A DNA stretch of 64,000 bases from NCBI GenBank assembly GCA_023078555.1, contig CM041201.1:501213-565212 (forward strand), given 5' to 3'. This document shows positions 21,501 through 62,254 of this stretch, one piece after another. The notes below the pieces were generated by a model. That model had not been told where the DNA came from. It worked only from the letters and a program-made list of their open reading frames with translations, and did no database searches. The stretch comes from Ulva prolifera. Its lineage: Eukaryota; Chlorophyta; Ulvophyceae; Ulvales; Ulvaceae. The position numbers were made by a program, and so were the translations under genes. Each line of letters begins with the position of its first letter. Within the stretch, counting starts at the first letter, position 1.

Positions 21501-24500
21501 CCGTGTGGCCGCGGCTCGGCGACGTGGGGGGTGACCCGGCCCCGCCGGGCGCCGCCGGCGCCGTGTTGCCGAGGGAGCTGATCTCGGGGAGCGTGAATAC
21601 GTGGGGCGCCCACGCGGCGGCGTCGACCGGCACCGCGAGCTCACAGGCCGCGATGCGGAGGGCCTGCACGAGGTCGAGCGAGCGCTGCAGCTCGGCGTCG
21701 CGGTCCGCGCGGAGCGAGAGGCAGCGCAGGCACGCCGCGAGCGCCGGGTCCGCGGCCGAGAGCTCCGCCGCGGACGTGAACATCTCGCGTGCGGCGCTCG
21801 ACAGCGTGCGTGCGACGCCCTGCGGTGACAGCTGGACATGTGCGTTGCCGTCGAGGTGCCTACAGGGGGCACGGGCGTGATCAATCATTCAAATGACTCA
21901 CCACATGGAGTCATCGCTCCATCACAGCGCGGGCGGCTGGGCAAGACCGCACAGCGGCCGGAGCTGCGCACACGGCACATAGAGGATTGCGCACGGATAG
22001 TGGAACAGGAGAGACAGGGTGTCCACAGGGGGCATTTTGTATCGGCAGGACAGAAACGTGCGATGCAGCGCTACAGCAGGGACGCAAACACAGACAGATC
22101 TTCCCCAGAGTCAACAGAAAGACGAGAGAGGAACTGTTCCATAGACACAGATAGACATGAGCTGGGAGTGCGGGGGGGGCAGATGATGTGTGAGGTGAGG
22201 GCGAGATTCTTTTCGTTTGGAAAGCGCAGATGGTTTGCGAGCAGGCGCACCTTTCCGCAACATCCCACTGCTGCGCAAGCAGTGTCGCCCGCAGGAACTC
22301 CCGCAGCAGGTACGCGAGCGACAGGCCCTGGCCCTCAAACACGTACATGTGCAGGTCGCGCAGGTCGTTCCAGAGGCGCGAGAACGCGTGCCCGGGGTCC
22401 GACCCGAGCGCCGCGGCCGCCGTCGCGTTCATCAGCAGCCCCCGCAGCAGCCCGGACACGGAGCTGCGGTCCGACGCCGTCAGCACGCACGCCATGAGGT
22501 GCATGCCGTGGCGCGAGAACACCCGCGCCGCGCGCACGAGGTCCCCGGCCTCCTCCAGCCGCACGCGGAAGTACTCCCGCTGCTCGCCGTCGATCGGGAG
22601 CTTCGCGGTGCGAACCTCCGCGAGGACCGCGTCGAGGAGGAGGAGCAGGCTCGCCCACTGGCCGCCCGCGGCGGGTGTCTTGTCGGGGATGAACGACTTG
22701 GCGAGGCGCAGCACGGCGGCGGAGAGGCTCGCGAGGCTGCCAAAGAGGGCGCAGTCGGCGTGGAGGTCGCAGCGGGCAGCCGCGACGGTCCATTTCGGCT
22801 CGGATGGGAACTCCAGCTGGAGCACGTTTGCGAGGGTCTGGTCGCGCGCGGGCAGCGCGCTCAGCGCCGGCGCCGCCACCTGCACCCGACCTTCGCTCAG
22901 ATGTATCATGACTCGGATGGCAGCATGCGATTGCCACGCCACGCATGCATGCAGGCGTACGCTTGGGTGGAGATTGTCATGTCTGTGGCACACATGCATG
23001 TTGTGGTTCCCGGCTCAACAGGTATGTAAAGGACGGGGCACGGTTGCTCTCATGCAAGGGCGCCCCAGGCGGATGCCGAAGCAGCAGCAGAGCTCTGGCT
23101 GTGGAGGAGGCACGCACCCGCGAGATGAGCTCGGCGCCGCGGGGGAAGTCGGACGGAGTGTCCGGAAAGCACGCGCGCAGCACGTAGCGCGCCTGCGCCA
23201 GCTCCGTCATCCCGAGGAAGTCCCGCAGGCTGAGCGTGGCGACGCTCTCCGCCGCCGCGGCATCCAGCACGTGCACGTTGCGGAACAGCGTGTGCATGAT
23301 GTGCACGCCCACCAGCTCCCTCGCCGGCGCCCCTGCCACGTGCGCAAACCACGCCTTGGCCAGCGCCGCCGCCCGCGCGAGCAACCCTGTGCGGTCGTCG
23401 ATGGCCATCATGCGTTCCGCCACCCACGCGTCTGCGGTCTCCGGATCGACCACCGCGCCGCCGTCGCCCCCGTCCAGCTCCACCTCAGCCTCTCGGAAGC
23501 GCTCCGTCACCTCGTGCTGCCCGTGCAGCGCCCCCCGCAGCGCGGCGACCGCGTCGGGGGCCTCCACGACATCGGGATCTCGCTCAGCAGCGCTCGCGGC
23601 GTCCGGGCGCGCATGCAGCAGCCGCTGCAGCAACGGCACGTAGAGCTCTGGCTCAGCCGTGTCGGGTAGCTGTGCAAGCGCCTCGAGCGCGCCGGCACCG
23701 CCGATCGCGCACGCATGGCGCGCGAGCACCGTCTCCAGCGCTGCAACGTTTTGCGCCGCCGCAAACCCTGCAGCTGCAGGTAGCGGCCCAGCCGCGACAA
23801 ACTCGCGCAGCCCCGCAATGTCCGCGTCCGCGCCGTGAATCGCCGCGTACGTCCGCGCCATATCCAGCCGATACAGCAGGCCCATACGCGCGGCCGCAGC
23901 ACGCGCAGCATCAGACCCCTGCAAGTCCCGGCCCGCAGCAAGAGCCTCGCGCAGCGCCCCCATGTCCTGCATGGCGAGCGCGTGACTCAGCAGCGCCACG
24001 GCCGCGGCGCTGGACGCGCCGGCAAGCCCGCGCGCCTCCCCCTCCAGCCACGCAGCCCCCTCTGCATCTCCGGCCACGGCCGCAGCGACCCGGTCCACGT
24101 CGGCCACATGCTGCGCGCTGCCGGCCCACACACGGCGGTGCACCTGCGCGGGCGGCAGCCCGGCAGACTGCGCGGCTGCGAGAGCGCGCTCCACGGCGGC
24201 CGGGGCGGCGCGGCTGCCCAACGGCAGCATGTGCTCGATGAGCTCCTCCGGGGAGGTCTCCTGCAGCGCGCACACGCGCCAGCCGATGACGCGGCGCGAC
24301 ACGCCGAACTTGTGCGGGATCGGGACGCCCTTGCGGTCGCCCATCTCCTCTGGCGTGCCGGTATAGTGCTGGCCCTGCACAACCGCCGAGCGTACGCATG
24401 ACGGTCCAGCGTGGCGAAGGAGAGCGCTGCATGGGGTGTGCAAGACCCAAGGTAGAGCACATACAACACCCCAGGAGCGCGCTCATGAGGACTAGCATGG

Positions 24501-32177: not shown

Positions 32178-34934
32178 ATGGCAGCGCTGATCACATCCGT
32201 CAATTCTTCTCCAGCTGCTCAGAGAGCTCCTGCGCGCCGGCGACACCACCAGCGCGGGAGCGTGATCGCGCAAATGGGTAAAAGCGTGTACCAAACTCGT
32301 TGCAATCGAGGTAAGGATGACGGGAGCATGAAAGTGCTTGAGTTCTATGCTGGTATCGGCGGCATGCACTGTGCACTGGACAAGGCCAAGTCAGCTGGCA
32401 AGATCGCCGCTTATGAAGTCCTCAGCGGGTTCGACATCAACCCCGCTGCAAACGATACATACGCTCACAACTTTGGGGCCTCTTTGGTTCGGTGTGTACG
32501 TCTTCGACCGTGATTTCGTGGATATACTCCCCAGTTTTCCTGGCCAGTGACATGTGCAAATTTCAATGACATTCCGTGCAGAACAACATCGAGCGAATAC
32601 CCAAATCACAGCTAGATGAATATGGAGCCCACATGTGGATGCTGGCACCTCCATGCCAGCCCTACACTCGACAAGGGTTGAAAAAAGATGCAGGCGACGC
32701 CAGGGCCAAGAGCTTCATGGCACTCCTCGCCCAGTACGCTCACATCCGGCCATGTCGTCGCAAGCGCATTCAGATTTGCATCTGGCCCGACAACGTAGCG
32801 TGTACGCCTTGTCAGCCTTCCCACTGCTGCAGGATTGCATCAATGGAGCATCCCCCACAAGTGCTACTTGTCGAAAACGTCGTGGGCTTCGAGACATCCA
32901 TCACCAGGCAGGCCCTCAAGAGCCTGCTCCAGAAGAACGAGTACCACTTCCAGGAGTTCATCCTGTCACCCAAAGACTTTGGCACCCCCTACTCTCGGCC
33001 ACGTTACTTCTGTGTCGCTCGCAAGAGGCCTTTCCCGATCACAAAGGACTTTGATGCGCCATGGACATGCACACCACAGGTCCTCCTGCAGCATCTCGCC
33101 CGTGGACAAGACAGATGGGAGGCCAGTCCACAGGTGAGCTTCATGTATCAGGTCAGCTCACTTCATTGCACAGCCTGCACACTGAGGCAGACAGGCATCA
33201 CACTCGAGCATGCCCACGTAGCGCACGTGCGGCCGGGTCAAAGCGTGAGTGCAGCCGCACCCCACGGTCCCGATGTGGGTCATGCACCCGTGCCTGATGA
33301 GATCTGGCACAGATGAAGCACCTGTGCTCTCTGAGCAGGCTTCGCTCCAGGCCTGGCTTCGTGACACCTCCACCTGCCAGCGTTTGGTCAACTTGCAGCA
33401 TTTCTGGGGCTGCAATCTAGGAATTAAAGCTACATCAGTCGCTCCAGAATCCTCCAGTGTAAGCATGCCTTACGATCAGACACTGCTGTGCACCATCTCA
33501 TGGAGAGAACCCATGTCAGGAATCACACCATAGCCACACGAGGCATCGTGGGGCTCCACGAGGCTATCAGCGCAGCAGAAAAAGAAGAAACCCGGAGGAG
33601 CCAGTACATATAGGGCCAAGCCGGGAGCGATCGATTGCATATCTGCAGGAGTCCGTGCAAGTACGAGACCTGTCCCACTACATGGAGGCGTCTCCGTCCG
33701 ACTGCGTAGTGGCCACCAGCGTCCCCGGCGCTCCCGCCCAGCCCACCGCCACATCCGCTGCCGAAGCTCCTCTGCCTCGTACCAGCGTCGATGCAGCCTC
33801 CGAGCCCACACCTCCAGCACCAAAGCTCCCGCGCCACGAGAGCCCTCCCCCGCAGCAGACTGCTGCAGTGATACGTAGTAACCTAAGAGAGCTAGATGCC
33901 ACAGCCGAGGCGGCTGCAGGCGCTGCAGGCGCAGAGGGACCCGGGCGAGAACCCGGGAGCATGGACGGCGAGGCTGAGCCGCGTGGCTATGAAGTGCGGA
34001 GGTGTGGGTGGGAGGACTTTGCGGTCCCGCCGGCGGTGATCGAGAAGTCTGCGCGCTGCATCGACGTCGTCACCGGGGAGCTGCACGACGCCAACTGCTT
34101 CACAAAGTCATACTCGAAGTACGCGAAAGGGACTGGGTCCGTCGTGGCGACGAGGAACCTGCATCTGCTGGCCTCGTTTGAGGACTGGGCGCACCGGGAG
34201 CTGGTGCGTGGCTTGTCAAGACGAATCCATTACGATCCTGTCCAGTCGGCACATCATCTCCTGCAGGGCAGCCACCTGCCCAGACACTGCTGTGTGCTTT
34301 CGTGTTTTATGTGGTTTACTGTGTGTTTCTGTGGTTTACTGAGCGTGCAGCTGTGAGTTGCGGCTTGGTCAGGTGTGTTGATGTAGCAATCTGCAGTCTT
34401 GGAGAGTTGCACCAGTAGACACTGATGCATGCATGCTATGGCGTCGCCTTTGACCACCACAGCAGTGCAAGCCTGTCTTGTGAGGCAGTGGTGAATCAGC
34501 TGCTTGCGTCACTGCCCGGTGAATGCATAAACCAAGGGCTCAAGGCATCAGGAGTGATTTTGACAACACACAGGCGCAGACATGCTGCTGAGATGGTGGG
34601 TCAAGGGTTTGAGATCAACGCACTCACACGGCGAGTGAACTGCTTGCAGGGCGGCGCTCCCAAGTACCCGTCACCTGCAGATGGGCACTGCAGCAGCGCG
34701 CCTGCGGTGGAGGGCGCCGCCATCGGGGACCGCATGCAGCACCTCGGGCTGCGGTTCTTCACCCCCCGGGAGGTGGCGAACCTGCATGCGCTGCCCCAGA
34801 CCTTCAGCTTCCCCGCGCACGTGACGCTGAAGCAGAGGTACGCGTGCCTCGGGAACAGCCTCAGCGTGGAGGTCGTCGCTGCACTGCTGGAGTACCTCTT
34901 CCACGATGATGCGACCTTCGGCCCTGCTGCGTGA
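32178..34934 (+). CDS. DNMT2: tRNA (cytosine-5) methyltransferase, Dnmt2/TRDMT1 type
   Basis: Dnmt2 enzymes have the fold of DNA cytosine methyltransferases but methylate C38 of tRNA-Asp. Five exons join in frame: 32178-32495, 32582-32733, 32833-33133, 33649-34203 and 34650-34934 (536 residues). Motif I is [15 protein letters not shown], motif IV with the catalytic Cys is [12 protein letters not shown], motif VI is [12 protein letters not shown], then [20 protein letters not shown]. The CFT signature specific to Dnmt2 is in [19 protein letters not shown], and motif X is [20 protein letters not shown]. The usual length is near 390; the excess is an N-terminal extension of about 50 residues (the true start may be the ATG at 32271) and a Pro/Ala/Ser-rich insert at the start of exon 4. 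The first donor (GTACGT, 32496) and last acceptor (34650) are the least certain splice sites. Confidence 0.95.
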
Positions 34935-38460: not shown

Positions 38461-40381
38461 ATGGACTGGGCTTCAACTTGGAAGGCCGTCTGCATCGCAT
38501 GGCAACAGGGCCCAGTGCAGCAGATTGTGCAGTGTCTGCAGCATGCCGACTCCGACGGTCTCACAGAAGGCGCCCAGGACCTCTTCAGCAACGCCATGAG
38601 CCTGTGAGCACCCCTCCAAAGGGCACACAGGTGCCTGTGCAATGAACCTGTACCGCATCACACTGACATCATCGCCAGATTCTTCAAGTATCTGCCGAGC
38701 TCTAGTCACGCATGTTGGTGGCTGTGTTTCAGGTCTCGGCTCAGATGATCATCCAGGACCTCGTTCTTCTGCAGGACCGAGCAGCATGTGCATGCTCGTC
38801 TGCCCGCAAGCTATGCGTACCGGCTCTACAGCAGCCTATGCAAGGCTGTAGAGCGCCAAGGCCATGGCTGTTCCGAGGCCATGATGGAACTCCTCAGCGC
38901 AGCTCTGTGCAGCACTGACGGTCCTGATTCTCAGGCCTCCCAAGCCGGACATACACTGACAACGCCAAGATGCTTCTTCTACGGACAGCAAGCTCTCGAT
39001 CATCCGCACAGCCGCTCGCTAAGAAGGCAGCTGGGGATCACTGCAGCCAGCAGCCCATCTCCTCGACCTGCCCCAGAATCAAGTGCACCAGGAAGCAGCG
39101 CCTCGTCTGCAGACCAAGCCACACACACAGGGGCAGCTCCTGAACCCAAAAAATCACACGCAGCTCCTTCCCAGGCCTATGTAGGTGTCCCTCCCCCAGG
39201 TCACGTCCTGGTGTTGGCTTCGAGAAACGTGCTGGAAGGCGGGACGGGATGCCACGCGTGGCCGGCAGGGATGTGGTTGGCGCAGTGGCTGCTGAACCAC
39301 CCCCACGTCGTGAAGGGCCACCGCTGCTTAGAACTGGGCGCTGGCACTGGCGTTGTCGGGATGATAGCTGCAAGGCTGGGAGCCGCCCAGGTACTCCCCT
39401 CTCCCCTCCCGTCCACATCACTCGACGCTGATGCCCGGTATCGGGACATCAAGTGATGCTTGATACGCGTGTGTCCATCGCCTAAAAGCACTAGCAAGTC
39501 AGCTCGGACAGCAGGTCATTGCATGCTGTTTTTCCCCAAGCGGCATATGTGGCCCTGTTCAATCAGAGTTGTCAGTGTCCAATAGGATACGGCACAGGAA
39601 ATGCAGATTTACTGTGCTTCACGAGCCGCCTGCGGCCAGAAACTTCACGGGGGCACCAGCACCCCGCCGCACCCCAACACGAAGTCCCGCCTGTACATGC
39701 CAGTTGCATGGACGCACAGTATGCCATACACAGTGCCGCATGCATGCTGCAAGCACAGCTGCTGGGCTGCAGGTGACGCTCACCGACGGCAACGACGCGG
39801 CGCTGCGCAACGCCCGCGCCACGCTGCTGCTGAACCAGCTGGGCAGCCTAGACGAGGCCGGTTCACACCCGCCAGGCTGCGCCGCGCCTCCGGCTCCAGG
39901 TGCTCTGCACCATGGCCTCTCTCCAGGAGAGGCGGAGGAGCCGCGGCGGGCGCAGCCGCGCGATGATGAGGACTGCCACGGCCACGCAGGTGGCGAGCCG
40001 GAGCGCGAGAGGGGGCGGGGGGATGTGGCGGATGTGGTCGTGCGTGAGCTGCACTGGGGCGCCGGAGCGGTGGACGCGGATGTCGTGCTGGCGGCAGATG
40101 TGGTGTACGACCACGAGGCGATGCACGACCTCGCGGTGCAGCTGCGGGCTCAGCTGGCGGGGCCGTCAGAGTGTGCCTACGTGGCGACGGCCGTGCGGTG
40201 TGAGGAGACGCTGCAGCGGTTCCTGGAGGAGTGCGCGAGGCACGAGGTGCAGGCGGAGGTGGTGGAGACGGCGTTCACGGAGGAGGCCGATCGCTTTGCT
40301 GTGCAGTTCCACCACTGCTGTATGTTTGAGGGGAGCCACAAGGTGGTGCTGCATGCGCTCACCTCTGCTGGGGGCTGCTGA
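38461..40381 (+). CDS. FAM86/EEF2KMT-like protein-lysine methyltransferase
   Basis: Three exons, 38461-38603, 38775-39390 and 39773-40381, join in frame to 455 residues. The family (methyltransferase 16) transfers methyl groups from S-adenosylmethionine to protein lysines; FAM86A modifies elongation factor 2. Motif I is CLELGAGTGVVGMIAARLG, followed across an intron by VTLTDGNDAALRNARATLLL (the Asp binds the ribose), then DVVLAADVVYDHEAMHDL. The upstream segment GGTGCHAWPAGMWLAQWLL is the usual entry to the fold, and the first 130 residues (QQIVQCLQHADSDG, RLPASYAYRLYSSLCKAVE) match the helical N-terminal part of FAM86, which separates it from METTL21-type relatives. It is longer than the human protein (330) because of a Ser/Pro-rich insert before the fold and an Arg/Glu-rich insert around residues 275-320. 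Target is inferred from the family only. Confidence 0.85.
39532..39623 (+). repeat. Dispersed intronic repeat, copy 2
   Basis: Partner of the stretch at 9180-9270, here in the second intron of the EEF2KMT-like gene in sense orientation. Confidence 0.6.
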
Positions 40382-41887: not shown

Positions 41888-44800
41888 ATGCAGATCAACG
41901 CATTGTCTTCCAAAAGCAGATTCTCTGCGGCTGGATCGCGTCGTGTTGTGAAAGTGCATGCCGCAGCGCCGGAAATTGATATGGAAGTGTCTGGCTTGAA
42001 GCACTTGTCGCCCGAGGCTCGCGAGCGAGCTCTGGCGAAGAAGGCTAACACCTTCGAGAAGGTCAAGCGTGCAAAGTGTGGTTCTAACATGTGGACCGAG
42101 GTGCACGAGCTCAGCGCTCTCCTGAAGGAAGGGAAGAGCACGTTCGAGGAGCTGGACCTGGACGACGTAGAGGTCCGCCTGAAGTGGGCTGGCCTGTTCC
42201 ACAGGAAGAAGCGCGCACCCGAGACATTCATGATGAGGCTGAAAGTGAGAATTTCCTCAGCTGTCTACTGTATTCAATTGTTGCTGATATCGGGTTGACT
42301 CCGAAAGCCGCTCCGAAATGTCGTCCGACAATTGCCTCTCCACGCCTGAAGGTCCCCAACGGAGAGCTCACATCCACACAGCTTCGCTCGCTTGGTGATA
42401 TCATCAAGCCTTACGGTGACGCGGGCTGCGCAGACATCACCACGCGCGCCAACATCCAGCTGCGAGGCATCAAGCTGGACGATGCCTCTGACGCGATTCA
42501 CAAGATCGAGGAGATGGGGCTGACGTCCTTCATGTCCGGCATGGACAACGTTCGTAACCTGACTGGCTCCCCCATCGCCGGGCTGGACCCACACGAGCTC
42601 GTGGATGTGCGCCAGACGCTGGTGGACATGCAGGTGTGCCTCTGCACCACCGTCTCTCCTGCACATCGCCTCACCACGAGCAGCCACGCGAACGCAGTCA
42701 CATCGTCACATGTTATCACATGCCGTAAGTCTTCTGCCCGAAGCCTGTGCGTCAGGCGGCGCCTGCTGTGCACAGCAGCATTCCAAGTCTTCTGCAGCGC
42801 AGGCGACAATGGCACTGCTCCTCTCTCACAGCCATGCCTCCACCACAGCAGCACCTGCATGCCTCGCTCGCACTCTTCCCACACTGACCGTGTGCCCACG
42901 TCTCCATGCCATTTCCCAGGGCGCTCTTGTTGCACACACCCGTCGGAGCGACCGCAAGCTGCCGCGCGTTTCACACGTTCTCTGCTCCCCACCTTCAAGC
43001 TTGAGGACATGCCAACACAACACCATATGCTGACACCCCATGCGCATGCAACGTCCATCCTCACACCCAATTCCACATCTGTTGCGTCATGATACCTGAT
43101 CAAAACATGATCGACCCCCTCCCGCCCACACCTCCCCCCGAGGCAGTGGCCAGTCACCCCACCGGCCCCCCGTCGTGCGCAGCCAAGACCGTCCGTGGCA
43201 TGCAGGACGTGATCACGAACTTTGGAAAGGGCCGCGCGGACCTCACCAACCTGCCCCGCAAGATCAACATCTGCATCTCGCCCACCCGCGACGACTTCCC
43301 GCACACCCACATCAACGACCTCGGCTTCCAGGCCGTCGTCAACGGCGACGGCGAAGTCGTGTACAACGTCGAGGTGGGGGGGTACTTCTCCATCAAGCGC
43401 AACGTGACCTCCATCCCCCTCGGCATCTCCGTCACCAAGGACCAGGTGCGGGCCTCGTCCCACTCGCGCGATATATCACCCGCGTATCCCCACGGAAGCT
43501 GTGCGCCGTTGTCGCGGTGCCTTGGTGATGCGTGGCATGGGATACCGTGCGCAGGGCTGGGCTCACATAGTGCTCCTATGCGCGCTCCGATTGGGGGGGG
43601 CACACCGGGCTTACCCTGTGATTGTCTGTGGCCTCGATCGGGACGCTGCGGCTCGGTGCGGTGTTATCGCGCTGCGCTCCACGCGCTCGGCTGCCGCATT
43701 GAGCGCACCATGTGCAGCAGCCGCCTGCCCGTTCGATTTCTGTGCGCGGCGCAATCGCTGCCGTCTGCTGCATATGATGGCGCATGTGTCCTGGGCTCCA
43801 TCAGCGTGCGCTGTGCTCAGCGTGCTGTGCTGAGCGGGCTGTGCTGAGCGTGCTGTGCAACGCGGCTGGTGCCGCGTGCCAAACGCCTGGATTTGGTCGC
43901 GCTGCAGCGCTGTCAGCGCGCTGTGTGCTGAGTGTGCTGTGCGGTGCAGCTGGTGCCGTTTGCGGAGGCGCTGATGCTCGTCTTCCGCGACCACGGCCCC
44001 CGCGAGAACCGCCAGAAGACGCGGCTGATGTGGCTCGTGGAGGAGGTCGGCGAGCGCGCCTTTGCGGCGCTCGTCGCGGACCGCATGGGCGTGGACGGCT
44101 TCGCCCCGGCCGTGGAGGTCGCGTACGATGATGTCTGGGAGCGCCGGGACATTCTAGGGGTGCACCCGCAGAAGCAGGAGGGCCTCAGCTGGGTGCGCCC
44201 CCCCTCGCCCCCCCTTCCTTCTTGTGCCCCGGCCCTGCCGCACGAATGCCGGATCCACAGCGTGATGGTGCTCCGCCAGATAGATGAGGTGACTCATGCG
44301 GCGCGAGGGTGTGTTGCTGGGGGCAATACGCTGTGAGGCCCGTGCAACGCACGCTGCGCAGCGTGCGCTGTTTCATGAGGAAAACGACGAGGAGGCCACA
44401 GCCAGCGGTCGGCGCATGCGTGCGCTGCGTGGCGTGCGCCGCACCCCATGGGCTTGTCACATCGGGGCGAGTGGTGACACTTTAGTGTGTGGTCGGGCGC
44501 CCAGCTGCGGCAGGGCTGGGGGTGGTGTGGGGCCTGGGCTCGCCCAGGGAGATGGTGTGCATTGCACGGGCCACATCAGCGGTTCAGAGCCACTGCATGA
44601 CTACACTCTCCCCTAGCTCCCCACGCCAGCCACAGCGGCCAGCAGGACACTACCTACCTCGCATTTGCACCTGTGGACACCACCATGCATCCACATTTGC
44701 ACCCGGCTCTCCCATGGCTCCACCGGGCTCCGCGCTGAGCCGACCCGCGTGTATGCATGTGTTGAGCCCGGGTCACCTGTGCCGCATGCATGCAGGTCGG

Positions 44801-46081: not shown

Positions 46082-46210
46082 ATGTAGTTACAAAGGACAG
46101 ATGCCGAGCGTTGAGCCGTTTCTCGGAATCCACTCGACAATCCACTCATTCATTTCACTAGGCGGAGCGCATACCACAGACCTGCCGGTGATTCCAGCCA
46201 ACAGACTGTA
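46082..46210 (-). mobile_element. LINE 3' fragment
   Basis: About 130 bases aligning by eye with 16936-17072, including the conserved TACAAAGGACAGA start, CAATCCACTCA and GCCGGTGATTCCAGCCAA. On the minus strand it covers the last codons (LLAGITGRSV) and 3' UTR of the same LINE family. It is a very short, older copy. Confidence 0.65.
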
Positions 46211-49324: not shown

Positions 49325-49440
49325 AGCAGCATTGGGTCCTCGGCCCGATCACACAGAACAATTCCGACTGTTCAGATCTAATTTTGGGGTAGCCGTCCTG
49401 GAAATGCTGCAAATGCTGCAAAGCGACTCGACACTGGTGT
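49325..49440 (+). mobile_element. MITE copy 1
   Basis: About 116 bases sharing the inner sequence CACAGAACAATTCCGA, TTCAGATCTAATTTTGGGGT and GCTGCAAAGCGAC with two other copies. The left end AGCAGCATTGGGTC is the terminal inverted repeat; the right end (GACTCGACACTGGTG) is more decayed. There is no coding capacity, as expected for a non-autonomous DNA element. Confidence 0.72.
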
Positions 49441-50740: not shown

Positions 50741-50793
50741 CGTGCGAATCTCGCGAGCGGAGCCGTCACCCCGGTGGCCACCGTGCGTAATTC
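50741..50793 (+). promoter_or_regulatory. Conserved promoter block of gene A
   Basis: Fifty-odd bases containing TCTCGCGAG, GGAGCCGTCACCCCGGTGGC and CACCGTGCGTAATTC are almost identical to 59081-59134 in front of gene B, while flanking bases differ. It lies 163 bases before the ATG (152 in gene B). TCTCGCGAGA is palindromic and resembles a binding site. A second shared piece, TTGTAGATTTTCAGA, just before the ATG is probably 5' UTR. Confidence 0.65.
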
Positions 50794-50955: not shown

Positions 50956-52999
50956 ATGCTGTCGCTTGTTACGGTACTGCTGCTGCCAGCATGTATGGTC
51001 ACAGCACACGCTGTAGACCACAGCCCACTGCAAGCCACCAGTGCGGCTGTTGAGACGTTCGATGGTGTTCAGCAAGTGGTCGTGGATGCTGTAGCCACGG
51101 ACGCAGCAGCAATAGACATCGGGGAGGGTGTCTCCAGGCAGCTGCTTGCCTCGCGATCGAAGAAGGTTACCAAGAAGAAGACTGTCAAGAGGACACCAGG
51201 TGGAAAGAAGGTCACGAAGAAGAGGAAGACTACAAAGAAGAACAAGAAGAAGGGTGGAAAGAAGAAGAAGACGAAGAAAACCAAGAGGAACAAGCGCTTC
51301 AAGTGGAAGGGCAAGGGCAAGAATGGCCTGAAGTTCAAGTCAAAGAGGCCCAAGAAGGCGCTCAAGAACGGCGAGATCGTGTACGATGCCGATGGCATCA
51401 AATGTGTCGCAACGAAGAAAGAGACAAATAAGATTGCGTTCTCCAAGAGCGCAGAGCTGCATGCTAGCGCAGGTAAGCCCCGTCAGCCAAGGTCAAGTCA
51501 TGCTTGCAGAACATATTTACAAAAGAGTGAACGGGAGAAAACAAACACTGAAACCGAATGCTTGCAGAACATGTCCGCAGCTGCGACATCAACACATGAA
51601 ACGCTGACCTCTTCTTGCGTGCAACAGACCCGGCATGGTTTTGGTATTATGCAATAGCATGGCGGGCAATCGTCTGATCTGTCGCGGAATCCGACAACGC
51701 TAAGAGCCGTCGTGACGATCAGACCGAGCTGTGGGTGTGCACAGCAGCCACGCCACATGTAGCCACTGCATCGCAGCCCTTCAGAAGCCTAGACCACCGC
51801 AATGTGATTCACAAAAGTAGCATGCCGCTTCTCCATAGCTCTCGTGTAGAGGCAAGTTTCTTGATATCCTGCTGTGGTGGATCTGTACTAATTTTTGCAT
51901 GCACACACTACCACCTGATGAATCATCCTCTTATCAACCACCAGAACTAGCCATGTGATCATATGTGCATGCAGATATGGTACATGTTCCGCATCACAGC
52001 TGCAGCTGTTCAGTGTCACCACCATGCAGATGCACAGTTAGTGTAGTGCATGCCACAGAGTGGATAGCCTCTTGGTCAACCTGATATTCGAAAAGAAGAA
52101 GTGCACACCAGCAACGAAGCAGTGCACACCAGCAGTGCTTCGCATATACATATACTACCGCATCTACATATACTCCTGTCAAATTCATGCATGCTTCCTG
52201 GTAGTGCCCTGTGGCATGACCTCTGGACTGTTTCATGCATTCATCATATGTACTGTATGGTCATGCATATGGTTGGTGGTGCATGCATGAATCAACTCTG
52301 ACTCACGGTGCAGTGGCGGAGGCTGTGGAATATCTGTGCAACCCCCCTGGTGATTTCAAGGTCACACACCTGGAGGAGATCTTCGAGGAGGCAGAGGCCG
52401 CGGCCTTCGCTCACGTGCGCCCCCTCCCCCTCACCGAAAAAAAAAATTCCCTCTTCGCGCCCCTCCCGCCCCATAGCGCTCACAAGGCGCCTAGGCTGCT
52501 CCAGCTCCACAGCTGCTCCACCCCCGCTTCTATGTCCCCTCGCAGACACAAGCATGCACAGCGTCTTTGACCTGCCAGTGCCTTAGCTGCATGACACTGA
52601 CAGCTGCTCCCCAAGCCAACACACGATCGGCAGCGGTGGCTCTGCATGGAAGCATTGCACACGGCACCTGTGACACTCGCTACGACAATACTACCACACG
52701 GGTTCATGTTGGGCCCGCAGACCCCCACCCCCCCCCGCCTGCAGAATGCAGAATGCAGAATGCATCCGTGCATATGGCCGGCTTTAACGTGTCCATCCCG
52801 CAGCTGTGGCGTCTTCGCTGTCAGGGCTCTCACCCTGACGGCAGGCCTGGCAACACCCACGTCTATTCTGCGGATCTTTGGTGGCTTGGGTGCTGACAGG
52901 GGCGCGTGCGTGCAGGCCGCAGTGGAGGCGAAGCTGAGGTGCAAGTCCAAGGGCAAGGACACGCCGGAGACGTGCGTGAGCTACTCCGGTGCGCCCCCG

Positions 53000-53040
<41 letters not shown>

Positions 53041-54427
53041 ACCTATTGCTCTCTGCACGCTCTGCGCTCTGCACGCTTTGCACGCTGTAAAGTGCGCTCT
53101 GCATGCTCTGCGCTCTGCACGCTCTGCATGCTCTGCGCTCTGCGCGCTCTGCACTCTCCGCCCTCGCCGGCGAGGGATCGGCCGCGGTGTACGCGGCGTA
53201 CGCAGGCTGCAGCCTTCACAGACTCAGGGTACCCTGCCTACCTTAAAAGAAAATCACCTAGGCAGCTGCTCATACTGTGTGTAAGCGGCACGGCCACGCA
53301 CCGTGATCCCACCCTTGTAAGTGCCAGCAAGCCCGCATATGCATTACACTCATGGGCGCGGGATGAATCGGCAACCAACCCGAGGTGGTGCGTGCAGCGA
53401 CCGCAACGGCGATTGCCGAGGCGACGGCGACGGCGCACGCTGAGGCTGCGACCACGGCCATCGCGAGCTGCCCATGCATGACGGACGCGGTCATCGCCGG
53501 CTTCGCGAGCGCCGACCTCTACATCGAGCTCGTGGCCGACGCCTCCGTGACCGCTGAAGCCACCGTCTGCGTCGAAGGTGTGCCCCCCAGCCCGGCCCAG
53601 CCCGCTATGCACAGGCGCCCGGGTGATCGCGATCACGCATGATCAGATGCTGCACTACCTAGTAGGGCTGGCGCCCTGTGGATAGGATGCATTCATCATA
53701 TTCAATTCATCCTACTTTGAAGTGAGTTTTCATGGGGAGCTGTGCCTTACGAGTCTGCAGCTGCTGATGTACAAGCTCGTGTAATGGGTGGCCGAGTCAC
53801 CGGTTCCGGGCGTGACACGCAGATGAAACGCGCTGGAATGCAGCATGATCTGATGGAGTGCGTGCAGGCAGGTCAAAGGGCAAGGACGTGGCGTGGGAGC
53901 AGTGCACGTCGGTCATCTACGCGAAGCTCTTTGCCAAGGTGCGCTAACTTGCCTCCGTCTTGGCCGCGTCGATTCCACTGCACTTTCAAGTTGTAGAGCA
54001 TGCGTAGCTGCTAGCACACGGGCCAGCATGCGCGGCCCTCAGGGACCGCCGCTGCTCCTTCCAAGCAGCATGGGGTCGTCCGGTCCAGACACATAGAACA
54101 ATGTTCCGATTGTTTAGGTCGGATTCATGGCTGGCAGCTGTGAAAATGCTGCAAGGCGACCCAATGCTGCTCCCAAGCCGTGCCGGAACCGTGCTCCCCC
54201 AGCTCGGCTGCGGCGTGGGTGCCACATGTCAATACACTACATCAGCCCGAGTGTGTTGTAATTGTGGGCGGTGTATGCAGGCGCTCGCGAACGCGGCGAC
54301 GTTCGGCACATGCATGACGCCGGAAGCCACCTCGGAGCTCACGGCGTACGTCGAAGCCGACATCACGAAGTTCAACACCCCGCAGTGCGACGTCGAGCCC
54401 GTCTGCAACGGCTGCGACGAGGAGTAG
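50956..54427 (+). CDS. Gene A of an unrecognised secreted, basic, cysteine-containing family
   Basis: Six exons: 50956-51472, 52314-52414, 52916-52988, 53398-53577, 53868-53938 and 54281-54427, joining in frame to 362 residues. A signal peptide (residues 1-19, ending VTAHA before VD) is followed by a neutral to acidic stretch ending in SRQLLA (60-65), then a basic region where about 30 of 50 residues are Lys or Arg (67-116). Then come FKWKGKGKNGLKFK and EIVYDADGIKCVAT. Exon 2 gives VEYLCNPPGDF and EEIFEEAEAAAF; exon 3 LRCKSKGKDTPETCVSYS; exon 4 an Ala-rich alternating stretch (TATAIAEATATAHAEA), SCPCM and ATVCVEG; exon 5 WEQCTSVIYAKLFAK; exon 6 FGTCM, TPQCDVEPVCNGCDEE. Twelve mature cysteines, ten shared with gene C. 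Secretion is inferred. The basic region recalls proteins that bind silica, phosphate or acidic polysaccharide, but no function is assigned. Confidence 0.9.
53000..53039. repeat. Poly-C run (40) in gene A intron 3
   Basis: Starts 11 bases after the donor GTGCGC. The matching place in gene B is C-rich but not a pure run, so this is a recent expansion. Confidence 0.95.
54064..54171 (+). mobile_element. MITE copy 2, inside gene A intron 5
   Basis: The best-preserved ends: AGCAGCATGGGGTCG on the left and CGACCCAATGCTGCT on the right form a terminal inverted repeat of about 15 bp with one mismatch. The inside has CACATAGAACAATGTTCCGA and GCTGCAAGGCGAC. Total about 108 bases, no coding capacity. 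It is absent from the same intron of gene B, so it inserted after the duplication or was lost there. Confidence 0.78.
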
Positions 54428-55910
54428 GACCCCCCACACAAGCCCCCCTGCAGGGGGCTGCTTCGGTGATGCTACGGCCCGAAACACGAAACGGGGGCCT
54501 CCCTGGTCATTGGGCTGGGCGTATTGGTGAACACTCAGATGCGTCGGTGGTCGAGCATCGGCACAGCTACGCATCGGCACCTGGGTGCCGGGTGCTGCAT
54601 GTAGGCCCCGGCCAATGATGCATGCGTGGCGATAGCGGGGACGGCTGCTGGGACGCAGACTCCACCAGCTGGACTGCTTGGGGGGACGTCAAAGCGCAGC
54701 GCAGCGCAGCACACACGGGATGTACATATGGGGCCGGTGCTGTGCAGCAGTGGACGGGGGCGTGCTGTCCATGCATTCGGGCTGGCCTCGCCCTGGGCGT
54801 GGCAGCCTCCTGCCCTGAAACATAATCTCTGCAGCGGCCTATCGTACGGCTGCAATATCCATGTTCATTCTAATACTGCATGCACATGCATGCACGCGTG
54901 GGGGGATGTTGCGGGAACAGATAAGATGCGGCCGTTTGCCTGGGGCAGCACAAAAACAAACGCTGCGGACCGCAGTGCATGCGGTTCATGCATCACGCGG
55001 GCCGCACGAGAGCATGTAGAAGCCAACCCGCACATGGTGTGGCGTCATTATTTCGAGGCAGGGAACGGGGCAGGGGACGCTGGTGCACGACAGGCGGCCA
55101 TCTGCCGACACGTGCCATGTGATGTTTGGAGTTTTGTACTGTTTGCACAGAAATGTTTTCTCGTCTTTACTGTGTTGTGGCATGTCGGGCATTGCCCCCT
55201 CGCCCAGCTGACAGCGATTTGTCACCTGATCTCTAGCACACAATGCACCCGCGATGTGCTCTTTCCTGGGGGCCTTGCATTTTTCAACTTTAAGGAATGA
55301 TTTTTCAAATGGTTTCAAAGCTTCACGTGAATTCTGTTCCAGTGTTGCCTTGTGCGTGTCGTGGCCTGTCTTTGCATCAGAATGGGCCGCCTTGGGGACA
55401 TGCTCGCCTGTATGTCACTATGTTGAGGTGTAATGAAGTCTTGGCAGGCCTGCCCTCCGCCTGTCCTGTTTCTAATGGAAGCTATTTGTAACCTAGTTGC
55501 CGTCTGTCGAGAGACCACTGCATTGTTACTATAGGGTCGCATCACTGTACTGAAAGCAACAGACAGCATGAAATGGTAGATTTCACGCTGACTCGCACAG
55601 CCATGCCCTCTGCACCAAAGAAACGAATCGAATTGCCCAGCATGCCTCACCTGAGCGCCCATCGGCTTGAGAGTTCGTGAGCATGCATGCCCCTTGGAAG
55701 CCACACAACTACTGGTGGCAGGGTCAATCCTTTGCGCGTGTTCCTGCGGCGCTGCCTGCACACCTACCTGGTCCATTTGAAACACACAAAGCAGCACATG
55801 GAACGACCACCACCTTTCACGACCAGCTGAGTCAGCGTCCTGAGTAGAGCCGCGAGCGGGGCACAGGAGCGTGGAGACAGCCCCCCCAGCGAGGTGCACT
55901 ACTTGCATAG

Positions 55911-56006
55911 CTGACACCTACGTGGCATGCCTGCATGCGGTGCTGACACCTACGTGGCATGCCTGCATGCGGTGCTGACACCTACGTGGCATGCCTGCAT
56001 GCGGTG
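55911..56006. repeat. 32-bp tandem repeat, 3 perfect copies
   Basis: Units start at 55911, 55943 and 55975 and begin CTGACACCTACGTGGCATGC. All three are identical, implying a recent origin. Confidence 0.95.
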
Positions 56007-57077
56007 CTGCACGTGTCTACATCTCCGACTTTCTCCTTGCAACACTGCCCAATTGCCTTACGGGTGTACTTTAGCCGTTACGATGCCTGGAGTGTCGCCA
56101 TGGCTCCGAGTATGCTCCACAGCCTGGGCAGTTCTAGATCTGTGCATGTTGATCGTGTCGCCTGTGCAATGATGTGCACGAATGTCAAGTACCAGTGTAC
56201 CTGCCTCGGGCCCTCGTGGAGAGATCACATGTGAATCGTGTGCAGTCAAGGGAGCTTGGATTCACCAGCGAAATCCCTTCCAGAATTGTGATCCAGACGC
56301 TGCAGCTTGTCAGCCACGGGACTTCGCAGATTGTCGAACATTTGTTCATGGTGTCCACACTGTTTGGCAAGGCCTTGCCGGCCAGGGACGTCCGCGCAGC
56401 GCTAGCACTCGTCATTCCGGCCGCTGCTTAAACCTGATGTTCAAGTCTTGGCCACTGTGCAGATTATCATCACAGAAGAGTGAACGGGCTCGGACCAACA
56501 CACGGCACGGATGTCTTACGAAGCAGTTTCACACTGACTCTCAGTATCACAACACAAGCACGCCACAGCGATGATACTTCAGTGACGTATGGCTGCTTGG
56601 CGCTGACTCCAAGGCAGCGCAAGACTGCTGGGATATGGATGTGGCGCGAGCGCCTTATCTCACGTTGACTGGCACGCACAGCTGATGCAAGCGAGGCCAT
56701 GCAAATGCTCCGGATCCGTCGAACTTCACAGAAGGGTGGGTCGATGGCATGTGACGACAGAGGTATGTATCTCGAGACATATGACGGCCACGAGTCGTGG
56801 CCCACGACTACCTCTGGGTCCGGCCGGGGAGCGCGAAGGCGACAGCGCTATAGCTGGCCACTCATTTGCCTCCCTGCTGTCATTCACGCGTACGCTGATG
56901 AGAAAACGTGGACGTCTCGATGTGAGAGCTAGCAAGCGCTTGCGGGTACCCATCCCAGCTTTGTACGGGATTCGCAGCTGGCTGCTTGTGCACACGTGGC
57001 CATGCAATTTCATCATGTGCTGCAGCTAAAGGTATTAGTATGTGCTGACCAACGCAGCTGCCTGCACGGGGATGTCA

Positions 57078-57104
57078 AAACCGATCAAACCGATCAAACC
57101 GATC
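57078..57104. repeat. 9-bp tandem repeat, 3 copies
   Basis: Three copies of AAACCGATC in the A-B spacer. Confidence 0.9.
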
Positions 57105-57903
57105 AATAGCATGAGCATGCCACTTATACATGCATGCTTGATGCAGCCGTGCTTGCATGTTCAAGTGTACACATGAGCCTAGCCTGGCACATCACCCCAC
57201 AGCGACCGCACGGGATTGCTTTGCTTGGTGCCAGTATCGGACGGGTGCTGGTTCTGTGGCAAGCATGCATGCTGGCTGTGGCCCAGGTGCGATGTGCGAT
57301 ATCCACATATGTGGTGGGTTGATTGCGCTCTGTGAACAGAATTCTTGAGCCGCTCGCTCTTGCTACTGCGGTGCTACCTGCCTCTTTGCAACGCATGCGG
57401 CCCCCACATACGTCAATCCCACCAGCCGGTGGTGAAAAAACGTGTGGAGCTAGGCAGGGAACTCACAGATGACTCGAGGACATGGAGTGCTCTGTGGTCC
57501 GCACAAGCCTCTCGTTATTTCTGCAACACACAGCTAGCCCGGCCGATGCCGTCGCCGTAAGAGATTGGCTCTCCGCCGGCGGCCCACGATCGCGATGCAG
57601 CGCAGATCGAGCCAGCGGGCATGCCTGCCGCTGCAGGCCGCAGCGCACATGCTGCTCTGATCAGACTCCGATCCGAGTCTCCATCTCGAAGGTGAGCTAC
57701 ACAGGTGAGCTACACACCTGTCCATGGGCGGCGGGTACGCGGGGTGGTGTGTGTGTGTGCGCGTGCGCGGGTGCGTGTTTGGTGGGTGGCGGGTACGCGG
57801 TGATTCGGCGCCGTGTCCGGGTTTGCCGTGGGTGGGCATCTCCTGACGTGCATGCATTGGGGCGTTGGCGTGCTCGTTCGTTGCCCTGGCGGTGCTACCG
57901 GTC

Positions 57904-57985
57904 TGGCAATCCAGTGATATGGCCGCTATACCACTGGACCCTTGCACGTCGTGAGTGGTATAGCGGCCATATCACTGGATTGCCA
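57904..57985. other. Perfect 32-bp inverted repeat (hairpin)
   Basis: Left arm 57904-57935 (begins TGGCAATCCAGTGATATGGC) and right arm 57954-57985 are perfect reverse complements, with an 18-base loop. Transcribed, it would form a 32-bp stem, a size suited to a small-RNA precursor; as DNA it could be a tiny foldback element. It is outside any called gene. Confidence 0.9.
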
Positions 57986-58239
57986 CAACCGGCCACTCCG
58001 GCTGTGGCCTTGTAACACCGCTCCACGGCCATCTCAACCCGCTGTCATGTGACTCCTCAGGCTGGCTACAGCACAGAGGGTGCCTGGAGTGGCTCAGCAG
58101 TATCAGCTGATGGATGATCATGATTGGTCCGCGGCCGCTGAGGGCCAGCCATGCACCGACCGATCAGGGCCTAGTGAGCTCTGTTGCCCAGTGGGTTTCC
58201 TGAGAAGCCTCGACCATGACCATGCCTGTGTCTGCCACC

Positions 58240-58343
58240 CAGTGTTGGGTCATTGGGCCCAATCACATAGAACAATTCCGAATGGGCAGGTCTAATTTCT
58301 GGGTGGCAGCCCCGGAAAAGCTGCAAAACAAGCCAACACTGCT
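58240..58343 (+). mobile_element. MITE copy 3
   Basis: Shares CACATAGAACAATTCCGA, GGTCTAATTT, GGGTGGCAGCCC and GGAAAAGCTGCAAAAC with copies 1 and 2. The ends CAGTGTTGGGTC and GCCAACACTGCTGC are inverted repeats. About 105 bases, roughly 0.95 kb upstream of gene B. Confidence 0.72.
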
Positions 58344-59080
58344 GCGACCCCCATGCACCGCCTCGGCCCTGCATGGCGCCAGCGGCAGGGGATCCAGATG
58401 GTGTAAAATTTGATACCGGGGGCAGTGAGGAAGTGATGCTGTATGGCAGAAGCTACGACCTTAAGCATCCAGTCAGTGCAAGTGGTGCCGCTTGCCGTTT
58501 GGTTGTGACCTCAACAGGCAGCGTCCAAGGGTGTGTGTTGGAGGGATTAGCACACCATAGAGCACTTGCATAGAAATGAGTCCCTGTGCACATGAGCAAC
58601 ACCTGCATGCCACCAGATACCCAGACAGGCCCAACTTGCATTGGGAATCTTGCAGACTGCTGACCGGGAAGCCAGCAGGCAGGCATCGCCTCAAATGTGG
58701 TTCGAATGCTGTGTGTTCGCTAGTTGAACAGTTTACAATTTACACATATGGGTTCGCTAGTGGGACGATGAACACTGTCTGGCCATGGGCTTGCAAAGAA
58801 CCACACGTGGTCATCTGTACATGACTTGAGCATGGCCTGAGCTTGTCATTGGCTCCAGATCCACGATGTTGCAGATCTAGACATGTAAGCCGTGGCAGCA
58901 TGCCAACGCTGCGGGCCATTGCAACCATATGGACCGACATACGTTAACAAAATTGGCTCACTGTTCGCCCATTCAGAGAAACCATTACAAGAACTTTCGA
59001 CTTCGTATTGAGAACCTGGCGCGGACCACAAAGACCACCTCGTGATAATCGATGAATTATTCATTCGCAGTTGGTCAGGC

Positions 59081-59134
59081 ACATGCGAATCTCGCGAGAG
59101 GAGCCGTCACCCCGGTGGCCACCGTGCGTAATTC
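59081..59134 (+). promoter_or_regulatory. Conserved promoter block of gene B
   Basis: Near-identical to 50741-50793 (see there). Here the palindrome is complete (TCTCGCGAGA). It lies 152 bases before the ATG. Confidence 0.65.
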
Positions 59135-59285
59135 TCACCCGCTCTGCACGCGCCGGCGAGCAATAATGTATCAGTGAAGTCCACGGCTCAGCGATAAAAG
59201 CGAGCGGACGTAGTTGCTCACGTATACCCGCCTTCTTCTCGTGCCGTTGTAGATTTTCAGAAAGCTAGACACGCAAGAAACCACG

Positions 59286-62254
59286 ATGTTGTCGCTTGTC
59301 ACGGCACTTCTGCTGCCAGCATGCATGGTCACAGCACTCGCTGTAGACCACAGCACACTGCAGGCCGCCGGTGCGGCTGTTGAGACCTTCGGCAGTGGTC
59401 AGCCAGTGCCTGTGAATGGTTTAGCCACGGACGCAGCAGCTGTAGACGTCGGGGACGGCGTCTCCAGGCAGCTGCTTGCCAAGAAGAAGAAGAACAAGAA
59501 GGGCAACGAGCAGGGCGAAACGGAGAAGAAGACAAAGAAAACAACGAAGAAGAGTGAGCGCTTCGTGTGGAAGGGTAGGGGCAAGAATGGCCTGAAGTTC
59601 AAGCCGAAGAGGCCCAAGAAGGCGCTCAAGAACGGCGAGATCGTGTACGATGCCGATGGCGTTAAATGTGTAGCGACGAAGGAGGAGACAGACAAGATTG
59701 CATTCTCCCAGAGCGCAGACTTGCATGCTAGCGCAGGTAAGCCCCTCCTGCCCAGGTCACGTCATGTGTGCAGAACATGCCCGCTGATGCGAGTGACACC
59801 CCGATCTCGTTTCTGCTTGCAAAGGTCCCGCTCCGACTATCTCAATCAACAGCATGGCGGGAGATTGTCTGATCGGTCGCCATACAGCATTTTATAGCAC
59901 CGAGTGCGGTCACGAGGAGCAGTAAAAGCTCCGCGTGTGCACAGAAGCCACGCTGTTTGCACAGATAGCCACTCCACAACGCGCCCCAAATGCTCACACC
60001 AACGCAACACGGTCCACGATAGGTAGCATATCGCTATTCCATAGCGTTTGTGTAGGAGCGATGTTCTGAAAGAGCTGCTGCAGCAGCTGTGTACTCATGT
60101 TCACAAGCATCCTGTTGAATCATCTGCACACCACCAGAAAGCATCCATATTTACCAATCCATGATGATCACATCTGCATGCTGCATGGGCTCTCCATGCA
60201 GATATGATTTGCCCTCCGCGTGTTCAGCATCACAGCTGCAGCTGTTCAGTGTCCCAGCCGGGCAAATGCACAGCTGCTTCCAATTTTGTAACTAGCTAGC
60301 ACACAGCCTTCTAGGCACAACCTTGCAATACCATGTCAAAGGAGCAGAGCCGGGATGATGTGGCAAGAACTCGATACACGCTTTGAGCTGAGCTTCAGTG
60401 GTGCTTCGTGGCATGACCTCTTAACCTCTTGACTGCCCGAGACATCTGATGAATCATATGACTGCTGGATCATATACATGACTGCTGACTGGCGGTGCGT
60501 GCATGAATCTCATGCATGAGCTCGAACTCATGGTGCCTGCTGCAGTGGCGGAGGCCGTGGAGTACCTGTGCAACCCCCCTGGCGACTTCAATGTCTCACA
60601 CCTGGAGGAAATCTTCGCCGAGGCAGAGGCCACAGCCTTCGCTCACGTGCGCCCCCCCCCCCCCCCCACCTTGCTCCACCCCCCGGGGTCCCCACATCTG
60701 CCATCCAAAAGAAAACACACTTCTTGTGCAAGCACAGGCGTGTGCAGTGTGTCCATTCTCCCTCAACTACAGCATCCTGTTAATAGCCGGCTATTAATTG
60801 GCTGACCGTAGAAGCCGACGTTCGACGCGATCGGCATGCGGACGCCACAATTTGGAGCTGCATGCGGCCTCTGAACACTGCTACAGCCGGCTTTTCCCTG
60901 CACACCTGCACATAGGATCGCAGTCAAGGTTCATCAGGCCTTGTACAGCGACGCGCCACCGCTGCGGCCGGCTTTGCCGAACATGCATGCAGCCCCTGGC
61001 GTGCGGCCAAGGCTCCCCCCCTGACGCCTGACGTGGACATTCATGTTAACCTCCCTCGTGGCCTGGGTGCTGACAGGGGCGCGTGCGTGCAGGCCGCAGT
61101 GGAGGCGAAGCTCACGTGCAAGTCCAAGGGCAAGGACACGCCGGAGACGTGCGTGAGCTACTCCGGTGCGCCCCCAACCCCACCCCTGCCGCGCTCACGT
61201 ATCAGTACATGCATCCCGCTGATGGGAGGCATCTACATCTAGACAGAGCAGCGAATGAACCCGAGGTGGTGTGTGCAGCGACCGCGACCGCGATTGCCGA
61301 GGCGACGGCGACGGCGCACGCTGAGGCCGCCACGGAGGCGATCGCGAGCTGCCCATGCATGACGGACGTCGTGGTCGCGGCCTTCGCGAGCGCCGACCTC
61401 TACATCGAGCTCGTGGCCGACGCCTCCGTGACCGCTGAAGCGACCGTCTGCGTCGAAGGTGAGCGCCTCGCTTGATGTCATACCAGGATTTCAGGATCAA
61501 TGTGTTGTACTGTTGTTGGACCGCCGAGGCGACCGTCTGCGTCGCGGGTGCGCGCCTCTGGCCACTCAAATTCCAATGCTGCCCGCAAGCAACGCTGCAG
61601 AGGTCTACAACGTAGTGACAGAAATCCGATACGAGGTGTGATTGATGTGAGTTCAAGCAGGAGGGACATGATGCATGCATGCTCACGGTGGGGTCCGGGT
61701 ACGTGCTGGGCGGCCGGATAGCTATCCGCGGATCTAGACTACAGCGCCAGCGTAACATGTGTGCACCTGGGTGAAACGGCCGAACACAGCATGATCGAGT
61801 GTCTACATGCAGGCAAGTCAAAGGGCAAGGATGTGGCGTGGGAGCAGTGCACGTCGGTCATCTACGCGAAGCTCTTCGCCAGGGTGCGCCAACTTGCCCC
61901 CCTGCCGCCCTTCGCCACGCACCGTGGCCTGGGATCCGCTGTGAGTGCATGTAGCGCAGCATGCATGCTCTTATGCATATGCATGATCCTCGAAGAATTC
62001 ACCAACTCGTTGCTACCTCCTGCGCCCGTTTCCTGTAGCGCCATGGGAAAAAACAAAACATACGCGGCTTCAGAATTCAGTGTTGTGAACGCGGGCGGTG
62101 GGTGCAGGCGCTCGCGCACGCGGCGACGTTCGGCACATGCATGTCGCCGGAGGCCACCGCACAGCTCTCGGTGTACGTGGACGCCGACATCACGAAGTTC
62201 AACACCCCGCAGTGCGACGTCGAGCCCGTCTGCAACGGCTGCGACGAGGAGTAG
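59286..62254 (+). CDS. Gene B of an unrecognised secreted, basic, cysteine-containing family
   Basis: Six exons: 59286-59736, 60546-60646, 61093-61165, 61279-61458, 61813-61883 and 62108-62254, joining in frame to 340 residues. It is the tandem partner of gene A. The signal peptide ends VTALA before VD, SRQLLA follows, and the basic region is 22 residues shorter and interrupted by acidic residues (GNEQGETEK). From FVWKGRGKNGLKFK to the end it is nearly the same protein; exon 4 is about 93% identical at base level and the last exon keeps the VCNGCDEE end. Introns 2-5 are shorter and mostly diverged, except for the last 15-30 bases before each acceptor. Intron 4 carries a second copy of the end of exon 4 with its donor. 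Same predicted secretion and twelve mature cysteines; function unknown. Confidence 0.9.
61520..61557 (+). pseudogene. Partial repeat of exon 4 end inside gene B intron 4
   Basis: Thirty-eight bases match 61431-61468 (end of exon 4 plus donor) at 33 positions. It keeps the reading TAEATVCVAG and a donor-like GTGCGC, 89 bases downstream of the real one. It looks like a small local duplication that left a spare donor, not a working exon. Confidence 0.65.

Follow-up and report, generated by a model that had tools for sequence, protein, structure and literature searches.

The closest described systems to the genes reported here are the precursors of RALF proteins, in which a signal peptide and a pro-region with an S1P-type site followed by Ala precede a basic, Cys-containing mature protein. 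RALF proteins carry a YISY motif and four cysteines. RALF23 is listed, on bioinformatic evidence, as cut between RRIL and ATRR by SBT6.1, called an S1P ortholog (PMC13157962), SBT6.1 is reported to cleave CLEL precursors also, in the Golgi (PMC7162652), S1P is the protease that the catalytic core of a Chlamydomonas subtilase resembles most (PMC6313938), and in plants a pectin-binding positive patch is exposed by RALF4 together with LRX8 (PMC11062476). Sulfated wall polysaccharides have been reported from several green algal groups, and the words "lysine", "cationic" and "cysteine" are absent from the source in question, the one review on the extracellular matrix of green algae that was searched for them (PMC10762512). 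Here we analyse a 64,000-nucleotide stretch of the Ulva prolifera genome (assembly GCA_023078555.1, contig CM041201.1, positions 501,213 to 565,212 of the forward strand; hereafter the window, in whose own numbering all positions below are given) that contains three related genes, named A, B and C. Like RALF precursors, their products have a putative signal peptide, a pro-region with a candidate S1P-type site followed by Ala, and a basic, Cys-containing mature part; RALF processing is the closest likeness for the order of acidic pro-region, S1P-like site, cationic tail and presumed disulfide core. Unlike RALF, the three proteins have ten cysteines, a core of 201 amino acids and a long tail.

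We found that A, B and C are real genes of one family, as a preliminary description of this DNA had proposed: they share ten fixed cysteines and common splice phases, and are under purifying selection. Rebuilding the exon joins gave a single ATG-to-stop frame for A (50956-54427, plus strand, 362 amino acids) and for B (59286-62254, plus strand, 340 amino acids), each in six exons and within the same limits as first described. Exon 1 of A (50956-51472) encodes the putative signal peptide, the acidic pro-region, the RQLL-A site, a Lys-rich tail, the WKGKGKNG domain and the first conserved cysteine. It is followed by exons 2 (52314-52414), 3 (52916-52988), 4 (53398-53577, with a stretch in which Ala is every second residue, the sequence CPC and a second alternating stretch), 5 (53868-53938) and 6 (54281-54427, stop included). 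Exon 1 of B (59286-59736) has the same layout with a shorter Lys-rich tail, and the remaining exons are 2 (60546-60646), 3 (61093-61165), 4 (61279-61458, the equivalent of A exon 4), 5 (61813-61883) and 6 (62108-62254, stop included). All ten introns of the two genes are GT-AG with TGCAG acceptors, and their phases, calculated from the exon lengths, are 1,0,1,1,0 in both.

Identity between A and B was 0.836-0.973 over the six exons and 0.644, 0.551, 0.627, 0.473 and 0.512 in the successive introns, with shuffled controls at 0.405-0.451. For exons 2-6, the ratio of nonsynonymous to synonymous substitution rates (dN/dS) was 0.248 between A and B (23.5 synonymous and 19.5 nonsynonymous differences) and 0.227 between A and C, while over the full length it was 0.367 and 0.297, respectively. 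Fisher tests on rounded substitution counts gave p values of 1e-5 and 9e-15; synonymous sites are heavily diverged between A and C, with a dS of 1.6 in the core. These comparisons show that the core encoded by exons 2-6 evolves under purifying selection and that selection acts on the spliced protein, far beyond chance. The signal peptide and pro-region are under looser constraint (A-B dN/dS of 0.61 over 65 codons). When the 64-kb window was scanned with profiles, all 15 core matches and all three exon-1 matches above the inclusion threshold corresponded to genes A, B and C. The family is real and perhaps lineage-specific.

The next core-profile match, below threshold (61463-61612, E 0.18), falls within intron 4 of gene B, over an incomplete copy of an exon. 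There, positions 61519-61558 reproduce the end of exon 4 (61430-61469) at 87.5% over 40 bases and have a GT of their own; the copy may serve as an alternative donor or be what is left of an exon duplication that failed.

Gene C, on the minus strand, had been placed at 12594-15926. It has the same six exons as A and B, and its 3' end at 12594 agrees with that placement, but the start at 15926 does not, the frame from there having no ATG ahead of the exon end; after splicing, no Met occurs in this frame before residue 379. The main exon (14996-15876) encodes the core of a putative signal peptide, the RNIL-A sequence, an Arg/Lys-rich tail and a WRGKGQNG domain. The equivalents of A exons 2 to 5 follow in the same six-exon pattern at 14614-14714, 14016-14088, 13730-13909 and 13254-13324, and the counterpart of exon 6, which is extended at its end and includes the stop, lies at 12594-12797. 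The five introns between these six conserved exons are all GT-AG, with phases as in A and B, and three of the five have TGCAG acceptors. A scan for 5' completions, which covered the upstream sequence to 16700 and donors of the form GT[AG][ACG]G, found four, three of which use a small exon at 16486-16476. This predicted first exon (16476-16486, minus strand; ATG, donor GTGCGT) would restore a signal peptide. Completion with an ATGCAG acceptor before 15876 gives MKLRCLSIQRVVAAVLLAFNPLLSTNA, and the resulting model has a full frame, GT-AG borders in six of six introns and a signal-peptide-like start.

The ten cysteines, already described as shared, proved to lie at identical positions within each repeat unit of A, B and C. 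In A they are residues 150, 181, 215, 226, 255, 257, 288, 303, 325 and 350, and in each protein the ten span 201 residues from first to last with identical spacing. With borders set by eye at conserved cysteines, the core divides into units R1, R2 and R3 of 76, 77 and 51 residues, and A, B and C agree in the cysteine positions within them, 1/32/66, 1/30/32/63 and 1/23/48. Of 2000 shuffles per protein, 0 in A, 0 in B and 9 in C matched the R1-R2 score; when the cysteines were held fixed, the numbers were 6, 1 and 96. When R3 was compared with R1 or R2, 20 to 57 of 2000 shuffles reached the score, rising to 136 to 369 of 2000 with the cysteines kept. From the positions of the cysteines in the units and these shuffle scores we conclude that the ten cysteines can be read as three units of three plus one; duplication is supported for units 1 and 2, and suggested for unit 3. 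We rejected a division of the core into two halves (score reached by 5 of 1000 shuffles in A, 3 in B and 165 in C; profile comparison E 0.29), which is not significant in C, and the three-unit split is better for R1-R2. The conservation of all ten cysteines suggests that they may be paired as disulfides.

At the N-terminus, hydrophobic signal-peptide-like starts, judged by eye, end in AHA in A, ALA in B and, given the predicted exon, TNA in C. These starts make secretion, which had been proposed for all three proteins, likely for A and B, and for C only by way of that exon. The net charge of the pro-region is -6 in A, -4 in B and -1 in C, and its border with the basic tail reads RQLLA, RQLLA and RNILA, respectively, so that by motif alone an S1P-type site is present ahead of the mature protein in all three. 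Motifs of the RxLL/RxIL-A type, a form chosen after it had been seen, arose in 390 of 20000 shuffles of the 231-residue N-terminal region of C, and within its first 70 residues in 126 of 20000. The basic tail has 50 residues in A, 28 in B and 185 in C, with net charges of +29, +9 and +42; the Lys/Arg counts are 24/5, 12/1 and 18/34, the tail of C being longer and Arg-rich. The A-B dN/dS of the tail is 0.83 over 25 alignable codons and, taken with the Lys/Arg counts, this indicates that charge is kept while the sequence drifts. After the tail comes a domain of about 60 residues with VYD, CVA and the sequence W[KR]G[KR]G[KQ]NG, present in all three proteins, which bears out the WKGKGKNG-type motif noted before; a structure model of this part of exon 1 was useless (predicted local distance difference test score, pLDDT, of 45). 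The net charge of the part encoded by exons 2-6 is -18, -19 and -12 in A, B and C, and that of the Cys-to-Cys core -11, -16 and -7.

Database searches returned no credible relative. In Pfam searches, one of which listed matches of the three proteins up to E 10, no family reached the curated cut-off, the best match scoring 15.9 bits against a cut-off of 25; DNAPKcs_CC5, RPOL_N, Cox20 and RNase_J_b_CASP, each found in one member, were discarded as below cut-off or at E 0.15. No NCBIfam family reached its cut-off (best E 0.32, in one of the three members). A profile search of PDB sequences gave no matches, exon 4 of A gave one that is not credible (E 0.81), and the eight obtained with exon 4 of C (best E 0.012; DARPins and others) were judged to reflect compositional chance. 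In viral contigs, three queries gave 202, 88 and 354 pattern matches, and in prokaryote genomes two queries gave 176 and 593, none of them confirmed; each of these locus scans was built on a pair of short peptide patterns and is sensitive to none but close relatives. No credible relative was found in phages, and there is no description of such a family among the literature matches listed. The collections searched were viral, prokaryotic and phage sequences and curated families, with no algal genomes in bulk, and to that extent the family can still be called undescribed, a claim thus tested in part; among algae it may be widespread.

RALF membership was rejected: no RALF family appeared in the Pfam scan, the YISY motif is absent from A, B and C, and the cysteine frame is another one. 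Snakin/GASA proteins are likewise secreted and Cys-rich with a basic part, and were set aside; A, B and C have ten widely spaced cysteines, no adjacent pair and no Pfam match, and snakins have 12 cysteines (PMC7711543). Extensins and pherophorins of plant and algal walls are extracellular, as is predicted for A, B and C, but A and B are without Pro-rich repeats (the tail has 1 Pro in A, 0 in B and 20 in C), and there is no Pfam match. Silk-like and suckerin-like modules, like A, B and C, have Ala alternating with Thr, His, Ile and Glu, which is the composition of suckerins; in A, B and C, unlike in a repetitive fibre protein, the long alternating stretches stand between fixed cysteines in a compact core.

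Our preferred reading, tentative and a little short of evenly balanced, is that A, B and C are secreted pre-pro-proteins with site-1-type cleavage, whose cationic tail would sit on anionic wall polysaccharide and whose disulfide core would serve for anchoring or linking. The signal peptide would route the proteins into the endoplasmic reticulum, where the ten cysteines would lock the net acidic core of 201 residues, built of units that each have three cysteines and long stretches in which Ala and polar residues alternate. The next step would take place in the Golgi, where a subtilase of the site-1 type could cut R-x-(L/I)-L, the motif seen, just before the Ala, and the acidic pro-region would be lost. 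The mature protein would start with the cationic and probably disordered tail, behind which the W-G-G-NG domain and then the acidic core would come. Once the protein is secreted, its tail may bind anionic wall or coat polysaccharide, and its core may hold the protein together or join copies, which would give it an electrostatic role in the extracellular matrix, as an anchor or as a cross-linker. A role in the cell wall or matrix is our best inference from these features. Several points weigh against it: no relative of known function was found in the collections searched, the signal peptides were read by eye, a net charge of -1 makes the pro-region of C hardly acidic, the short RxLL motif turns up by chance in about 2% of C shuffles, and R3 is weakly supported as a repeat. 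Moreover, much the same features would be expected of a cationic protein secreted for defence or signalling. Defence is the main rival and, in our judgement, unlikely; the pro-region would mask the tail until cut, the basic end would attack microbial membranes, and the disulfide core would stabilise the molecule. The negative charge of the pro-region, the strongly basic start of the mature protein behind it and the Cys-rich core fit such a protein, as does the fast change of the tail sequence (dN/dS 0.83 over 25 codons), but the best conserved part is the 201-residue acidic core and no small cationic peptide, and no antimicrobial family was among the Pfam results. Binding of silica or carbonate by a protein of silaffin type, which the preliminary description had also raised, appears very improbable and found no specific support. 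The Lys-rich tail and the RxL-like processing site, which we take to resemble diatom proteins, and the K-x-x-K pairs (16 in the whole of A and 8 in the whole of B) speak for it, but C is Arg-rich (18 Lys and 34 Arg in the tail) and has only four such pairs, no Pfam-named gene of the window suggests mineralisation, and a narrow literature search returned nothing.

An Ala-rich alternating helix had been ascribed to these proteins. The alternation stands: Ala fills alternate positions in an unbroken series of 9 in protein A, 9 in B and 11 in C, which 1, 1 and 0 of 5000 shuffles equalled. Its autocorrelation, calculated for A and C, is positive at lags 2, 4 and 6 (z of 4.8, 4.3 and 4.1 in A, and 5.0, 4.2 and 3.6 in C) and negative at lags 1, 3, 5 and 7. 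On the Eisenberg scale the signs are the same, with the strongest signal at lag 4 and weaker ones at 2 and 6. The Ala period-2 scores (1.40, 1.61 and 1.17 in A, B and C) and the hydrophobicity period-2 scores (1.01, 1.07 and 0.86) exceed the maxima of 0.57 and 0.53 in 79 control windows, which are six-frame open reading frames (ORFs) of the window, mostly non-genes and a few overlapping A, B or C, and not known beta or helical proteins. An amphipathic helix is expected to be positive at lags 3, 4 and 7. The negative values at lags 3 and 7 therefore argue against one, and the period of two is strand-like, which makes the helix doubtful, although the shallow model that AlphaFold gave for exon 4 from three sequences consists of helices (mean pLDDT 64; 73-74 in the first 20 residues). 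A silk-like or amyloid-like structural protein, in which the period-2 Ala stretches would stack as beta-strands with an all-Ala face, cross-linked by disulfides and kept soluble before assembly by the tail, would account for the lag pattern, the long runs and the scores above all controls. We hold it to be an unlikely account: besides the helical exon 4 model and the nature of the controls, the hydrophobicity peak at lag 4 is compatible with a helix, identity between A and C along the core does not alternate and is strongest at lag 1, and helix-like angles are preferred in several windows of 17 residues, located in unit 1 and where unit 3 begins. Ala is, in addition, a poor strand former. A search of the PDB by Foldseek with the weak exon 4 model gave no matches, and an ice-binding TxT array, prompted by T-A-T in A and B, was dropped by eye, the residues between the Ala of C forming no Thr array. 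Quite unlikely, in our estimate, is a new class of extracellular polyelectrolyte protein in which a protease-released cationic tail and a disulfide-locked acidic tandem core of period-2, Ala-faced strands, with a fold without known relatives, would act as a linker of an algal coat that has its positive and negative parts built in. Compatible with all these functional readings is the view that A, B and C belong to a larger group of hypothetical proteins of green algae whose cores contain cysteines and alternating Ala, already present in sequence databases and new only to the collections searched. We regard this as evenly balanced; the viral, prokaryotic, phage or curated nature of those collections and a presumed likeness to Ala-alternating algal proteins favour it, against which neither Pfam nor NCBIfam gave a family at its cut-off, so that such a family, if there is one, is not among the curated ones there.

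Upstream of A and B on the plus strand lie two partner blocks, at 50743-50793 and 59084-59134, which differ by one mismatch in 51 bases, while synonymous divergence between A and B is about 0.2. The 35-base right part of the block, at up to three mismatches, occurs in the window at the A and B sites only, against a chance expectation of none, and is absent at C. The block is a probable cis-regulatory element, likely a promoter element shared by A and B. The spacer between A and B contains an 82-base inverted repeat (57904-57985, self-match 85%); other repeats are a pair at 49332-49413 and 58245-58327 (81% over 83) and a dispersed pair at 16940-17067 and 46082-46201 (73% over 130 alignment columns). 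A Pfam scan of 67 of the 88 ORFs of the window plus one further ORF matched eight families: aldehyde dehydrogenase (a piece at 7581-8144, minus strand), Sec39 (22980-24482, minus), C-5 cytosine methylase (32570-33313, plus), Methyltransf_16 (38749-40378, plus), NIR_SIR_ferr, NIR_SIR, histidine phosphatase and lipoyl ligase. The ORF at 42088-43089 (plus) encodes a ferredoxin-type nitrite/sulfite reductase (NIR_SIR_ferr, E 3e-14), a second such ORF and a NIR_SIR ORF were also matched, and we take this gene to extend to about 45.6 kb. Together with donors of the GTGCG type and the look of the reductase start, the matched families point to a green alga. Scans of the window with Rfam at gathering scores and for tRNA returned nothing.

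A core with strict alternation of Ala presents an unusual folding problem. In addition, the cysteine frame, the charge layout and the candidate processing site of these proteins lead to testable predictions on how proteins may be joined to anionic polysaccharides in the algal wall.

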